Positions 34,654 through 38,255 of a DNA stretch of 64,000 bases are shown here, piece by piece (the first letter of the stretch is position 1; the number at the start of each line of letters is the position of its first letter). Made by a program: the position numbers and the translations under genes. Origin of the DNA: Micromonospora sp. NBC_01796. GTDB taxonomy: Bacteria > Actinomycetota > Actinomycetes > Mycobacteriales > Micromonosporaceae. The DNA lies in NCBI RefSeq assembly GCF_035917455.1, contig NZ_CP109078.1:1860001-1924000 (forward strand), read 5' to 3'. The notes beneath the pieces are model-generated. The model did not search any database and was not told the origin of the DNA. It saw nothing but the letters and a program-made list of their open reading frames with translations.

Positions 34654-36489
34654 ATGAGTCGACCACGTCCGCGCGGCTGGGCGCTGGTGCGGCACCTGAT
34701 GGTGCCCGCCCTCGCCCTCGCCGTCGTCACCACCCTGCCCTTCGCCCCCGCCGCGCACCCGACCCCGACGACCGACGAGTGGACCGCCCTGAAGCCGGTC
34801 TCGGTCTCGTACGGCACACCGACCGGTCGCCCGGCCAAGGGCAACTTCCTCAGCTACAACGACTTCCACGGCGCCATCGACCCGCCGACCGGCAGCGGCG
34901 CCGCGGTCAACGGCACCCCGGCCGGCGGTGTCGAATACCTGGCGACCTGGCTGAAGAAGCTCCGCGCCGAGGCATCCGCCGAGGGTCGCAAGAGCACCAC
35001 CGTCGGCGCCGGTGACCTGATCGGCGCCACCCCGCTGGTCAGCGCCGCCTTCCACGACGAGCCGACGATCGAGCTGATGGACCTGATCGGGCTGGACATC
35101 AGCTCGGTCGGCAACCACGAGTTCGACGAGGGCGTCGAGGAACTGATCCGGATCAACCGGGGCGGCTGCCACCCGGTCGACGGCTGCCAGGACGGCGACG
35201 GCTTCGCCGGTGCCCGGTTCACCTACCTGGCCGCGAACACGGTGAGCCGGCGTACCGGGCTGCCGATCCTGCCGCCGGTGGACATCCGCCTGGTCGACGG
35301 CGTACCGGTCGGGTTCGTCGGGCTGACCCTGGAGGGCACCCCGGGCATCGTCAACCCGGCCGGGATCAGCTCGGTCCGGTTCACCGACGAGATCGAGACC
35401 GCCAACCTGTGGGGCACCCTGCTCAAGCTCGCCGGGGTCAAGGCACAGGTCCTGCTCCTGCACGAGGGCGGCTCCCAGTCCGGCGGGCCCTCCGACTGCA
35501 CCAACTTCTCCGGCCCGCTCAAGTCGATCGTGGCCGGGCTGCGTCCCGAGTTCGGGCTGGTCGTCAGCGGGCACACCCACCGCGCCTACTCCTGCTCGCT
35601 GCCGAACTCCTCCGGTGCGAACAGCGTCGTCACCAGCGCCGGCACCAACGGCCAACTGATCAGCGACATCGACTACTCGCTGGACCGGCGGACCGGCCGG
35701 TTCACCGAGATCACCGCGCGCAACGTCATCGTCGAGAACGGCGTACGCAACGCCGACGGCACCTGGCAGCAGACCACCCCCGGCAACTTCGTCCGCAACC
35801 CGGCCCTGGTGGAGCCCCGGGCGAAGGAACTCGCCGACAAGTACCGGGCGGCGGTCGCCCCGATCGCGGACCGGGTGGTCGGACGGATCACCGCAGACAT
35901 CGTCCGGGACAACCTGCCCAACCAGGAGAGCCCGCTCGGTGACGTGATCGCCGACGCCCAGCTCGCCTGGACCGCCGCCAACGGGGCCCAGCTCGCGCTG
36001 ATGAACCCGGGCGGCATCCGCGCCCCGCTGACGTACGGCACCTCGGCCGGGGGCGAGGCGCCCGGCGAGATCACGTACGGCGAGGCGTTCACCGTCCAGC
36101 CGTTCAACAACCTGGTGGTCACCCAGACCTTCACCGGGGCACAGCTCAAGGACGTGCTGGAACAGCAGTTCGTCGGCTTCAGCGGGCAGACCTCGCAGCG
36201 GGTGCTCCAGGTCTCGGCGGGGCTCACGTACAGCTATGACACCACCCTGCCGGCCGGCGGCCGGGTCACCGGCCTGGCCCTCGGCGGCGTGCCGGTGGAT
36301 CCGGCGGCCAGCTACCGGGTCACCACGAACGACTTCCTGGCCAACGGCGGTGACGGCTTCACCCTGCTCACCGGCGGCACCGACCGGACCACGGCGCCCG
36401 GTTTCGACGTCGACGCCCTGGTCGGCTACCTCGGCACGGGCGCTCCCGTGGCCCCCGGCCCGGCCAACCGCATCACCCGCCTCGGCTGA
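34654..36489 (+). CDS. Secreted bifunctional metallophosphatase/5'-nucleotidase
   Basis: Extracytoplasmic nucleotidase of the UshA type, 611 residues. Signal peptide: Arg-rich start, then MVPALALAVVTTLPFAPAA with a likely cleavage after AHP or APAA. The N-terminal metallophosphoesterase domain shows NDFHG, VGAGDLIGATP, SVGNHEFDEG and VVSGHTHRAY, the five metal-site blocks. The C-terminal 5'-nucleotidase domain shows SPLGDVIADAQL, MNPGGIRAPL and the aromatic NNLVVTQTFTG region. ATG 34654 has GGGAAG seven bases upstream, better than ATG 34639. It probably salvages nucleosides and phosphate from outside the cell. A terminator follows. Confidence 0.94.
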   Translation: MSRPRPRGWALVRHLMVPALALAVVTTLPFAPAAHPTPTTDEWTALKPVSVSYGTPTGRPAKGNFLSYNDFHGAIDPPTGSGAAVNGTPAGGVEYLATWLKKLRAEASAEGRKSTTVGAGDLIGATPLVSAAFHDEPTIELMDLIGLDISSVGNHEFDEGVEELIRINRGGCHPVDGCQDGDGFAGARFTYLAANTVSRRTGLPILPPVDIRLVDGVPVGFVGLTLEGTPGIVNPAGISSVRFTDEIETANLWGTLLKLAGVKAQVLLLHEGGSQSGGPSDCTNFSGPLKSIVAGLRPEFGLVVSGHTHRAYSCSLPNSSGANSVVTSAGTNGQLISDIDYSLDRRTGRFTEITARNVIVENGVRNADGTWQQTTPGNFVRNPALVEPRAKELADKYRAAVAPIADRVVGRITADIVRDNLPNQESPLGDVIADAQLAWTAANGAQLALMNPGGIRAPLTYGTSAGGEAPGEITYGEAFTVQPFNNLVVTQTFTGAQLKDVLEQQFVGFSGQTSQRVLQVSAGLTYSYDTTLPAGGRVTGLALGGVPVDPAASYRVTTNDFLANGGDGFTLLTGGTDRTTAPGFDVDALVGYLGTGAPVAPGPANRITRLG

Positions 36490-36495
36490 ACACCA

Positions 36496-36551
36496 GGTGA
36501 GCGAGGGCCCCCGACCGGTGCGAAAAAAGTGGGAAGGGGCCCTTGTTCACC
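36496..36551 (+). terminator. Terminator after the 5'-nucleotidase gene
   Basis: A 16-bp stem (36496-36511 with 36536-36551), fully paired in RNA with two G-U pairs, around a 24-base loop containing AAAAAA. Its right arm, AAGGGGCCCTTGTTCACC, ends seven bases before the next promoter. Confidence 0.75.
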
Positions 36552-36558
36552 GAGATGC

Positions 36559-36588
36559 TTGCGCGGGGGGCCGTTCGGTGGGCATACT
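36559..36588 (+). promoter_or_regulatory. Predicted promoter of the leader peptide / chorismate mutase transcript
   Basis: TTGCGC (36559-36564), an 18-base spacer, then CATACT (36583-36588). A start six to seven bases later would fall on the GTG of the leader peptide at 36595, making its transcript leaderless. Prediction from consensus only. Confidence 0.5.
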
Positions 36589-36594
36589 CGGTTC

Positions 36595-36663
36595 GTGATC
36601 CAGCAGGCGCACTTCTACTTTTACTATGGCTCCGGGAGTCCGGCAGCCGTAGGTAGCGCCTGA
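36595..36663 (+). CDS. Phe/Tyr-rich leader peptide of chorismate mutase
   Basis: A 22-codon frame, GTG to TGA, reading VIQQAHFYFYYGSGSPAAVGSA. Five consecutive aromatic codons (TTC TAC TTT TAC TAT, 36613-36627) are the end products of the branch that the downstream chorismate mutase opens. TTT and TAT are rare in this genome. A hairpin terminator begins 16 bases after the stop. This is the arrangement of an amino-acid attenuator: translation of the aromatic run would sense Phe-tRNA and Tyr-tRNA supply. No ribosome site is seen; the predicted transcript start coincides with the GTG. Not a functional protein in its own right. Confidence 0.78.
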   Translation: MIQQAHFYFYYGSGSPAAVGSA

Positions 36664-36705
36664 TCTAAAACCTACGAACGCCCCGGGCTCCTGGAGCCCG
36701 GGGCG
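36628..36705 (+). promoter_or_regulatory. Attenuator: terminator with alternative pairings
   Basis: Terminator stem 36679-36690 with 36694-36705 (12 bp, 3-base loop, then TTT). Competing pairings seen: 36628-36638 with 36688-36698 (11 bp, one G-U), which would break the terminator; 36648-36654 with 36670-36676 (7 bp); and a local hairpin within 36628-36648. Which one forms when the ribosome stalls is inference; the first competitor lies so close to the aromatic codons that a stalled ribosome could mask it. Confidence 0.65.
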
Positions 36706-36758
36706 TTTCGCTTCGGGGTCTGGAATTGCCAGGGGCCAACCCTCTCGGGAGCCCGGAA

Positions 36759-37073
36759 ATGACCGCACACATGCTTGAGCAGCCCGCCAACTCGCCCGCG
36801 AACGCGCAGACCGGCACCGACTCGCCGGAGGCCGCGGCGCGGATCCTCGCCATGCGCGACCGGATCAACGAGATCGACAGCGCCCTGATCGCCCTCTGGC
36901 AGGAACGGGCGAGCCTGTCCCAACAGGTCGGGGCGACCCGGGTCGCCTCCGGTGGCACCCGCCTGGTCCTCTCCCGCGAGCGGGAGATCCTGGACAAGTT
37001 CCGTACCGCCCTGGGTGCGGACGGCACCCAGCTCGCACTCCTGGTGCTCCGCGCCGGCCGCGGGCCGCTCTGA
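36759..37073 (+). CDS. Chorismate mutase, AroQ type
   Basis: Converts chorismate to prephenate, the entry to Phe and Tyr. The product has 104 residues. A non-conserved N-terminus of 27 residues precedes the helical AroQ domain: RILAMRDRINEIDSALIALWQERASLSQQVG with the conserved Arg and Asp, then LSREREILDKFRTALG. ATG 36759 has GGGAG eight bases upstream; a TTG at 36726 is in frame but less likely. It is a single-gene transcription unit controlled by the leader peptide and terminator. It has no fused prephenate dehydratase or dehydrogenase. Confidence 0.92.
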   Translation: MTAHMLEQPANSPANAQTGTDSPEAAARILAMRDRINEIDSALIALWQERASLSQQVGATRVASGGTRLVLSREREILDKFRTALGADGTQLALLVLRAGRGPL

Positions 37074-37134
37074 ACTCTCGCCCGCGCATCCGCAGGGCAC
37101 GGGCCACCGTCGTACGTCATGGGCCGGACGAGGC

Positions 37135-37173
37135 CCGGGGCGCCGGTCGCATGGATGACGACCGACGCCCCGG
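37135..37173. terminator. Hairpin between chorismate mutase and opp2
   Basis: 15-bp arms (37135-37149 with 37159-37173), one mismatch, 9-base loop. It lies between convergent genes ending at 37073 and 37245. Confidence 0.75.
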
Positions 37174-37244
37174 ACACTGAGGAGGCACTACCTTCACCGG
37201 TGACTCGAGCCGGGTGGGGCCCGGCCGCCGGCGTCTGAGCCGGC

Positions 37245-38255
37245 CTACTCGACCGCGTGCACCACGTCCCGCTCCTCGGCGAAGTGGCAAGCGCTCGGGT
37301 GGCCGGAATGCTCCCGTTGCACCAGCGGTGGATCCTCCTGGGCGCAGATCTCCTGGGCCTTCCAGCACCGGGTACGGAACCGGCAGCCGGACGGCGGGTT
37401 GGCCGGCGACGGCACGTCGCCCTCCAGCACGATCTGGTCCCGGTGACCGCGCAGCGTCGGATCCGGCACCGGCACCGCGGAGAGCAGTGCCTGGGTGTAC
37501 GGGTGGGTCGGCCGCTCGTAGATCTCCTCGTTGTTGCCGATCTCGACGATCTTCCCGAGGTACATCACGGCGACCCGGTCGGCGATGTGCCGGACCACGG
37601 ACAGGTCGTGCGCGATGAACACGTACGACAGGCCCAACTCGTCCTGGAGCTTCTCCAGCAGGTTGATCACCTGAGCCTGGATCGACACGTCCAGCGCCGA
37701 CACCGGCTCGTCACAGATGATGATCTCCGGGTTGAGCGCCAGCGCCCGGGCGATCCCGATCCGCTGCCGCTGCCCACCGGAGAACTGGTGCGGGTACCGG
37801 TTGATGTGGTCCGGGTTGAGCCCGACCAGATCGATGAGCTGGCGCACCCGCTCCTGTCGGTCACCCCGCGGCAGGACATCGGTGTGGATGTCGAACGGCT
37901 CGCCGATGATGTCGCCGACCGTCATCCGAGGGTTCAGCGACGTGTACGGATCCTGCAACACCATCTGGATGTTGCGTCGGGCCTTCCGCATCGCCGGCCC
38001 CTTGAGCCGGGTCATCTCCTCACCCCGGACGTCGATCGTGCCCGAGGTGGGTTTCTCGAGCCCGACCAGCAGTCTCGCCAGGGTCGACTTGCCGCAGCCG
38101 GACTCGCCGACGACGCCGAGGGTCTCCCCACGGCGCAGTTCCAGGTCGACCCCGTCCACCGCGCGAACCGCGCCGACCTGGCTCTGGAACACGATGCCCC
38201 GGGTGATCGGGAAGTGCTTGACCAGCTGCTGGGTACGCAGCACGACCTCACTCAT
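37245..38255 (-). CDS. oppF: Oligopeptide ABC transporter ATPase OppF type (opp2)
   Basis: Cytoplasmic ATPase, 336 residues, last gene of the second importer operon. Walker [15 protein letters not shown], signature [15 protein letters not shown], Walker [14 protein letters not shown] and switch [10 protein letters not shown] are intact, and the C-terminal cysteine domain ([15 protein letters not shown]) is present. By eye it is nearly the same protein as the opp1 OppF through the central 250 residues. It overlaps oppD2 by eight bases. The gene ends before a hairpin shared with chorismate mutase. Confidence 0.95.
   Translation of the reverse strand: MSEVVLRTQQLVKHFPITRGIVFQSQVGAVRAVDGVDLELRRGETLGVVGESGCGKSTLARLLVGLEKPTSGTIDVRGEEMTRLKGPAMRKARRNIQMVLQDPYTSLNPRMTVGDIIGEPFDIHTDVLPRGDRQERVRQLIDLVGLNPDHINRYPHQFSGGQRQRIGIARALALNPEIIICDEPVSALDVSIQAQVINLLEKLQDELGLSYVFIAHDLSVVRHIADRVAVMYLGKIVEIGNNEEIYERPTHPYTQALLSAVPVPDPTLRGHRDQIVLEGDVPSPANPPSGCRFRTRCWKAQEICAQEDPPLVQREHSGHPSACHFAEERDVVHAVE

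Follow-up and report, generated by a model that had tools for sequence, protein, structure and literature searches.

Corynebacterium glutamicum carries the aroR leader, in which a Phe-Tyr-Phe run precedes aroF, a gene for DAHP synthase (Neshat 2014, as cited in PMC11802643 and PMC4046766). In the available text of these two accounts, Phe limitation is reported to matter for aroR, whereas Tyr is reported not to, and no leader of a chorismate mutase gene is described. For Streptomyces lividans, eight leader peptides are listed, including leuL, trpL, and ilvL, most of which are described as leaderless (PMC8079986, Table 4), and transcription attenuation of Mycobacterium tuberculosis ilvB1 is documented in a 2026 paper (PMC13236596). 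By contrast with the structure described below, a survey of Actinobacteria (Seliverstov 2005; PMC1262725) reported that phenylalanine and tyrosine operons were not preceded by conserved RNA structures. The same survey summarizes work on Streptomyces coelicolor ilvB in which mutations of leader codons had no effect on regulation, and anatomy alone has therefore misled before in this phylum. In the literature searched, which did not extend to subscription papers and supplements, we found no actinobacterial attenuator of a chorismate mutase gene.

The locus studied here lies on the plus strand, at 36559 to 37073, of a 64-kb stretch of DNA from a member of the Micromonosporaceae (hereafter the window). 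We hold with high confidence that it is a ribosome-mediated transcription attenuator of a chorismate mutase gene that operates on a probably leaderless leader peptide. It is best read as classical attenuation on an apparently leaderless leader, the kind of system being known and the example new, and the leader sequence is very probably a switch that would give the enzyme only when Phe or Tyr runs short. Enteric trp and pheA leaders have a 5' UTR and a ribosome binding site. Unlike in those leaders, the last sensor codon here belongs to segment 1, and there is apparently no 5' UTR; the 1:2, 2:3, and 3:4 pairings, the position of sensor codons before segment 2, and a terminator before a biosynthetic gene are shared with them (PMC11802643, as far as its text was available). 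Like C. glutamicum aroR, the locus would be an actinobacterial attenuator with a Phe/Tyr leader in the aromatic pathway, but the leader precedes chorismate mutase and not DAHP synthase. It resembles the S. lividans leaders as an actinomycete leader peptide, presumably lacking a 5' UTR, that is followed by hairpins, whereas the S. lividans table, in the available part of that paper, holds no Phe/Tyr or chorismate mutase leader (PMC8079986). The leader families of Rfam are likewise cis-regulatory and located upstream of amino acid genes, but the locus differs from them in matching none at gathering score: there were 0 such matches in the whole 64-kb window, and each of the 25 matches obtained for 36540 to 36760 at E values up to 10 was under the cut-off of its family.

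The leader peptide gene (36595 to 36663; 22 codons; MIQQAHFYFYYGSGSPAAVGSA) runs from a GTG, the G of which is the presumed +1, to a TGA at 36661 to 36663. It opens with GTG ATC CAG CAG GCG CAC and continues with TTC TAC TTT TAC TAT GGC; the putative sensor codons are the first five of the latter (Phe-Tyr-Phe-Tyr-Tyr; leader codons 7 to 11; 36613 to 36627). This predicted ORF is the short leader with a run of codons for pathway products, here five for Phe or Tyr, that characterizes a classical attenuator. Among 40 long high-GC3 ORFs of the window, which are not curated genes, TTT makes up 5/394 Phe codons and TAT 17/344 Tyr codons, so both are rare locally. Both the 22-codon GTG frame with five consecutive aromatic codons and the rarity of TTT and TAT had been claimed in the original prediction, and both were confirmed. 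The -10 hexamer CATACT (36583 to 36588) ends 6 nt 5' of the GTG. A -35-like TTGCGC (36559 to 36564), read from the sequence, lies 18 nt 5' of the -10 and is a weak match. The promoter had been predicted to be consensus-like, but the -35 is weak, and a consensus promoter scan of 36200 to 37500 was negative for sigma-70-type sites; the promoter was judged by its conservation in relatives instead.

Three helices can form within and after the leader. The 1:2 hairpin (36625 to 36651) joins strand 1 (36625 to 36635), which starts with the last Tyr codon, to strand 2 (36640 to 36651), with an energy of about -14 kcal/mol for 36628 to 36654. The 2:3 antiterminator (36635 to 36691) consists of 36635 to 36643 paired with 36683 to 36691 and an inner helix of 36648 to 36654 with 36670 to 36676 (about -27 kcal/mol for 36635 to 36695), and the leader stop codon sits inside its loop. 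The 3:4 terminator hairpin (36677 to 36707) pairs 36677 to 36690 with 36694 to 36707 around a loop of 3 nt and is followed by the tail TTTCGCTT. A terminator hairpin had been predicted at this place and is present, but its stem has 14 bp and not the 12 bp claimed; its energy is -29.9 kcal/mol (z -5.2), which was equaled by 0/200 shuffles. As in a classical attenuator, a candidate intrinsic terminator thus stands before the structural gene, a conserved 14-bp hairpin with a short, weak T-tract 3' of it in the window. To the original prediction, the analysis added the 1:2 hairpin with the last Tyr codon, the conserved 2:3 antiterminator, which competes for the terminator's 5' arm, and a broader range of leaders, those of DAHP synthase with Trp among them. 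Read on the minus strand, the hairpin at 36677 to 36707 has CGTAGGTTTT after it, and the scan listed a terminator-like site there.

In the mechanism that we propose, the RNA would begin on or beside the GTG at 36595, judging from the promoter spacing, so that ribosomes would load directly on its 5' terminus and need no ribosome binding site. A shortage of charged tRNA-Phe or tRNA-Tyr would make the ribosome stall at 36613 to 36627 and occupy strand 1 (36625 to 36635). The stalled ribosome would block 1:2, so that strand 2 could pair with strand 3 in the antiterminator and the polymerase could enter the enzyme gene. With both amino acids plentiful, the ribosome would reach the TGA at 36661 to 36663 and cover strand 2, whereupon 3:4 would form and transcription would end; if the leader were not translated at all, 1:2 would form, and the terminator 3:4 would form as well. 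Whichever of the five aromatic codons occupied the A site, the leading edge of the ribosome would lie at about 36625 to 36638, over strand 1 and short of strand 2 proper, a position estimated from textbook footprints and not computed. This geometry of ribosome and helices fits classical attenuation.

The gene that would be controlled (36759 to 37073, ATG start) encodes a protein of 104 amino acids of the AroQ type. The protein scored 104 bits against NF005894 (cut-off 73) and 62.1 bits against TIGR01808 (cut-off 52.15), in agreement with the chorismate mutase predicted downstream of the leader, and 35.2 bits against Pfam CM_2 (cut-off 27). In its own genome, the gene is the sole TIGR01808 match at E 0.001. 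A Shine-Dalgarno-like GGGAG (36747 to 36751), read from the sequence, lies 7 nt 5' of the ATG, and a 5'-nucleotidase gene on the same strand ends upstream at 36489. Between the convergent genes for chorismate mutase and an oligopeptide transporter ATPase, there is a further hairpin at 37131 to 37178 (-31.6 kcal/mol on the plus strand and -40.3 kcal/mol on the minus strand), which is perhaps a bidirectional terminator.

A chorismate mutase matching NF005894 occurs in 120/121 genomes of the Micromonosporaceae, in 119 of them above the cut-off. We took 125 loci, namely, the locus in the window (L001) plus sets of 30 and 94, with second matches below the cut-off mostly left out, and 123 of these were oriented by tblastn (L124 and L125 gave no match). 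A leader candidate was present in 118 of the 123 oriented loci and absent from L056, L113, L120, L121, and L123; all candidates except L100 and L122 could be parsed with a -10, a start codon, and a stop codon, giving 116/118. Applied to the stretches upstream of the gene, the leader rule fired at 116/123 loci, against 0/123 reverse complements, 0/615 dinucleotide shuffles (five per locus), and 0/31 stretches downstream of the gene (the loci with enough downstream DNA). A similar rule fitted 77/80 loci of a second set that overlaps the first. The three misses in that set were L261 and L298, where the run is one T shorter and the leader frame altered as a result, and L307, a variant with CACACT. 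The aromatic run is therefore conserved in relatives, and the promoter spacing is conserved likewise. By eye, leader-like variants were seen at L056, L100, L113, and L120. Two chorismate mutase copies above the cut-off are found in four family genomes (G030, G044, G058, and G081). Three two-copy genomes have a leader at one copy (L095, L015, and L043) and none at the partner (L123, L122, and L121, respectively), and our guess is that the partner copies belong to specialized metabolism. Neither copy of G030 parses, with leader-like frames visible by eye at both (L113 and L120). These frames are divergent, with scattered aromatic codons followed by a hairpin-like repeat; that of L113 reads MTSALFTGFLGFTGPSPKPCRA by eye.

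The coding content of the leaders is conserved in a particular way. At least three of the last six residues are Phe or Tyr in 115/116 leaders, and these six residues include both Phe and Tyr in 116/116; a single leader contains Trp. All 116 leaders have Tyr as the last aromatic residue, with the positions before it mostly Phe or Tyr and often swapped. TTT accounts for 174/229 Phe codons of the leaders versus the 5/394 of the window ORFs. It thus looks as if selection acts on Phe and Tyr codons, often rare ones, and not on a fixed peptide.

The RNA helices were examined in an alignment (A1) of 110 distinct sequences from the 116 parsed loci, spanning the last Tyr codon through the terminator. 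All three mutually exclusive helices are conserved in A1, with pairing far above that of slid controls. The 2:3 antiterminator is formed by GGAGUCCGG with the terminator 5' arm and by CGUAGGUC with GACCUACG; its cells are paired in 88.8%, compared with at most 46.4% when slid. It shows 40 double-changed cells versus 10.6 in shuffles, a measure that counts sequences and not independent events, and these fall mostly in columns 12:82 and 13:81 (16 and 15 double-changed sequences). Counted as pairs, the double changes number six, which 51/500 shuffles reach, and some antiterminator pairs are often open (14:80 in 24/110 and 24:64 in 66/110). In 16 sequences, columns 81 and 82 are both unpairable in the terminator; strand 2 pairs with both columns in 8 of them, with one in 7, and with none in 1, and AU, UA, and CG versions of these pairs occur. 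The antiterminator itself therefore appears to be selected.

The 1:2 hairpin is formed by UAYGGC and CCGG with CCGG and GCCRUA, and its cells are paired in 95.4% versus at most 53.7% when slid. UAC:GUA is swapped with UAU:AUA in 5 sequences. Covariation in this helix is weak, with 2 double-changed pairs versus 1.4 in shuffles (212/500 shuffles reach 2) and more double-changed cells in the register slid by +2 than in the true one (21 vs 6). The 3:4 cells are paired in 95.1% (110 sequences, 11 pairs counted), with 11 double-changed cells in the true register versus 12 when slid by -1. A check on covariation of the stems thus had a mixed outcome, clear for the antiterminator but not for 1:2 or the terminator. 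Unguided, RNAalifold recovered four of the ten 1:2 pairs, all in UAYGGC, and for the whole alignment it gave the terminated state alone (the four 1:2 pairs, a small stem in columns 26 to 43, and 3:4); the antiterminator was tested as a named helix, and RNAalifold did not yield it unprompted. The locus possesses the mutually exclusive, covarying antiterminator of a classical attenuator.

Among the 116 parsed loci, the -10 hexamer is CATACT in 103, CATAAT in 5, TATAGT in 4, and CATAGT in 4, a TTG occurs at spacer 16 to 19 in 78, and the start codon is GTG in 111 and ATG in 5. The distance from the -10 to the start codon, for which 4 to 10 nt were allowed, is 6 nt in 36 and 7 nt in 80; in the second set, it is 6 or 7 nt in 75/77, the other two having 9 nt and 10 nt. 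A Shine-Dalgarno-like motif ahead of the leader start was found in 0/116. This spacing of 6 or 7 nt in 116/116, together with the lack of such a motif, favors a start on the GTG, and leaderless translation is therefore likely on sequence grounds. Transcription might instead start well upstream and give the leader an ordinary 5' UTR, an arrangement compatible with attenuation. An in-frame GTG at 36529 and the weak -35 would suit this arrangement, but the spacing, the missing Shine-Dalgarno-like motif, and the variation of the upstream frame extensions between genomes (judged by eye) make it improbable. We regard it as extremely unlikely that the locus is non-regulatory, with the hairpin being the terminator of the upstream 5'-nucleotidase gene next to a fortuitous ORF and conserved all the same: the hairpin does lie downstream of that same-strand gene ending at 36489, but the stretch between the two holds conserved elements, namely, the -10, the start codon, the Phe/Tyr codons, and the antiterminator.

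Across 94 in-frame sequences, the C-terminal peptide of the leader shows strong conservation, as would be expected if the nascent chain, YGSGSPAAVGRA, sensed a small molecule and stalled the ribosome in the manner of the arrest peptide TnaC. However, the third codon positions are 78 to 100% conserved over nine codons, similar to the first and second positions, and many conserved bases take part in 1:2 and 2:3 pairing. In several relatives (e.g. L051, L062, L080, and L105), moreover, the C-terminal frame is shifted while the RNA is kept in the alignment, so that the same RNA gives a different C-terminal tail, for example PGRRSR or PSRRSSR instead of PAAVGRA. Since the RNA stays aligned across these frame shifts, the apparent conservation of the peptide tail needs no nascent-chain signal, and because the C-terminal frame changes, the arrest peptide was rejected as very unlikely. 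It is also unlikely that control is exerted through translation or Rho, in which case 3:4 would only stabilize or insulate and leader translation would affect mRNA decay or access of Rho. The T-tract in the window is short, and Rho-type explanations have been proposed for mycobacterial cys leaders (PMC1262725, in its available text), but the 5' arm of the hairpin is in conserved competition with the antiterminator, and the Shine-Dalgarno-like site of the enzyme gene lies outside all three helices. The reading as an attenuator, which the original prediction had put forward, is supported by the conservation of the aromatic run, the promoter spacing, and the three competing helices, as far as sequence comparison can tell.

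At an E-value cut-off of 0.01, a covariance model of A1 (R1) matched 50/296 genomes of the class; many of these matches were weak, and some were apparently due to chance. In the genome of the window, R1 scored strongly at the leader alone; the other three matches were weak, one of them being the opposite strand of the leader. Inspected by eye, the matches L145, L146, and L154 resemble unrelated hairpins and were rejected as leaders. Outside the family, a looser rule was used, which requires a -10-like hexamer 5 to 8 nt upstream of the start codon. By this rule, chorismate mutase leaders were present at 35/70 loci of other actinomycete families; in the control, from which one locus was omitted as too short, the rule fired at 35/69 real loci versus 0/69 reverse complements and 2/207 shuffles. 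The leaders were distributed unevenly, with 16/18 loci in family f20 (such as MLTHPTFLFTYGNRPTGCHGRAA), 15/24 in f2, 3/5 in f15, 1/1 in f37, 0/20 in f19, 0/1 in f13, and 0/1 in f23. Within f2, genus g45 had 15/17 (such as MLDKRRFFYGYRSAVPVV) and genera g46 to g48 had 0/7. Two f33 loci and one f3 locus, which were brought in by the RNA model, also have a chorismate mutase leader.

The arrangement of codons and helices recurs in these lineages. In the examples inspected (three each from Micromonosporaceae, f20, and f18 and twelve from g45), a 1:2-like hairpin has the last Tyr codon within or beside its 5' strand. If the terminator's 3' arm is left out, its 5' arm can pair with strand 2 in 108/108, 22/22, and 14/14 folded sequences of three lineages, the 108 being those of the 110 family sequences that had the arm motif needed for this test. 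The g45 leaders (L159 to L179) have a hairpin at or beside the last Tyr codon, and 10/12 folded have a longer, imperfect terminator-like hairpin, which seems to be missing from the other two.

Eight model matches inspected in f18 and f30 (L138, L147, L149, L150, L152, L153, L156, and L157) all precede a gene for an AroF-type DAHP synthase. TIGR01361 matched in 103/296 genomes of the class, and among its best 30 loci (L309 to L338), 21 have a leader by the looser rule (such as MQRNFWRFYGYRPTGSVARRALR), versus 0/30 reverse complements and 0/90 shuffles. By family, these best 30 loci gave leaders at 17/17 in f18, 2/3 in f30, 1/5 in f15, 1/1 in f33, and 0/4 in f10; the class II DAHP synthase loci of the window's own genome showed no leader by rule. 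The DAHP synthase leaders are leaderless-looking and contain Phe, Trp, and Tyr, as in FWRFYG. Trp occurs in 20/21 of those from the best 30 loci versus 7/154 chorismate mutase leaders of all lineages, a contrast that counts related sequences without correction for phylogeny, with 17 of the 21 coming from f18; the second count takes L167 with its GTG start and becomes 8/154 with an alternative TTG start, whose frame contains Trp. The same contrast is seen inside f15, where three chorismate mutase leaders are without Trp and one DAHP synthase leader has it, and inside f33, where the corresponding numbers are two and one. Phe, Tyr, and Trp all depend on DAHP synthase for their synthesis, and only the first two on chorismate mutase, so the codon content of the leaders follows the pathway.

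There is about an even chance, in our estimate, that one old actinomycete cassette, a leaderless aromatic leader with its last Tyr codon serving as strand 1, regulates the aromatic pathway at several of its entry points, with sensor codons tuned to each gene: Phe/Tyr for chorismate mutase and Phe/Trp/Tyr for DAHP synthase. Compared with the 2005 survey, as far as its text was available, a conserved leader structure is now seen at 116/123 chorismate mutase loci of the Micromonosporaceae, and leaders resembling it are common in some other families. If such a cassette exists, codon reading and RNA folding would use the same bases, and the switch would therefore dictate the sequence of the peptide. 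The Phe/Tyr and Phe/Trp/Tyr leaders would offer a natural test of how codons are matched to pathway position, and the system would suit studies of attenuation by ribosomes that initiate at the extreme end of an mRNA. Chorismate mutase sets the share of chorismate going to Phe and Tyr versus Trp, and many actinomycete natural products draw on aromatic precursors; because the enzyme splits the flow of chorismate and aromatics feed natural products, the leader may be a practical handle for strain engineering.
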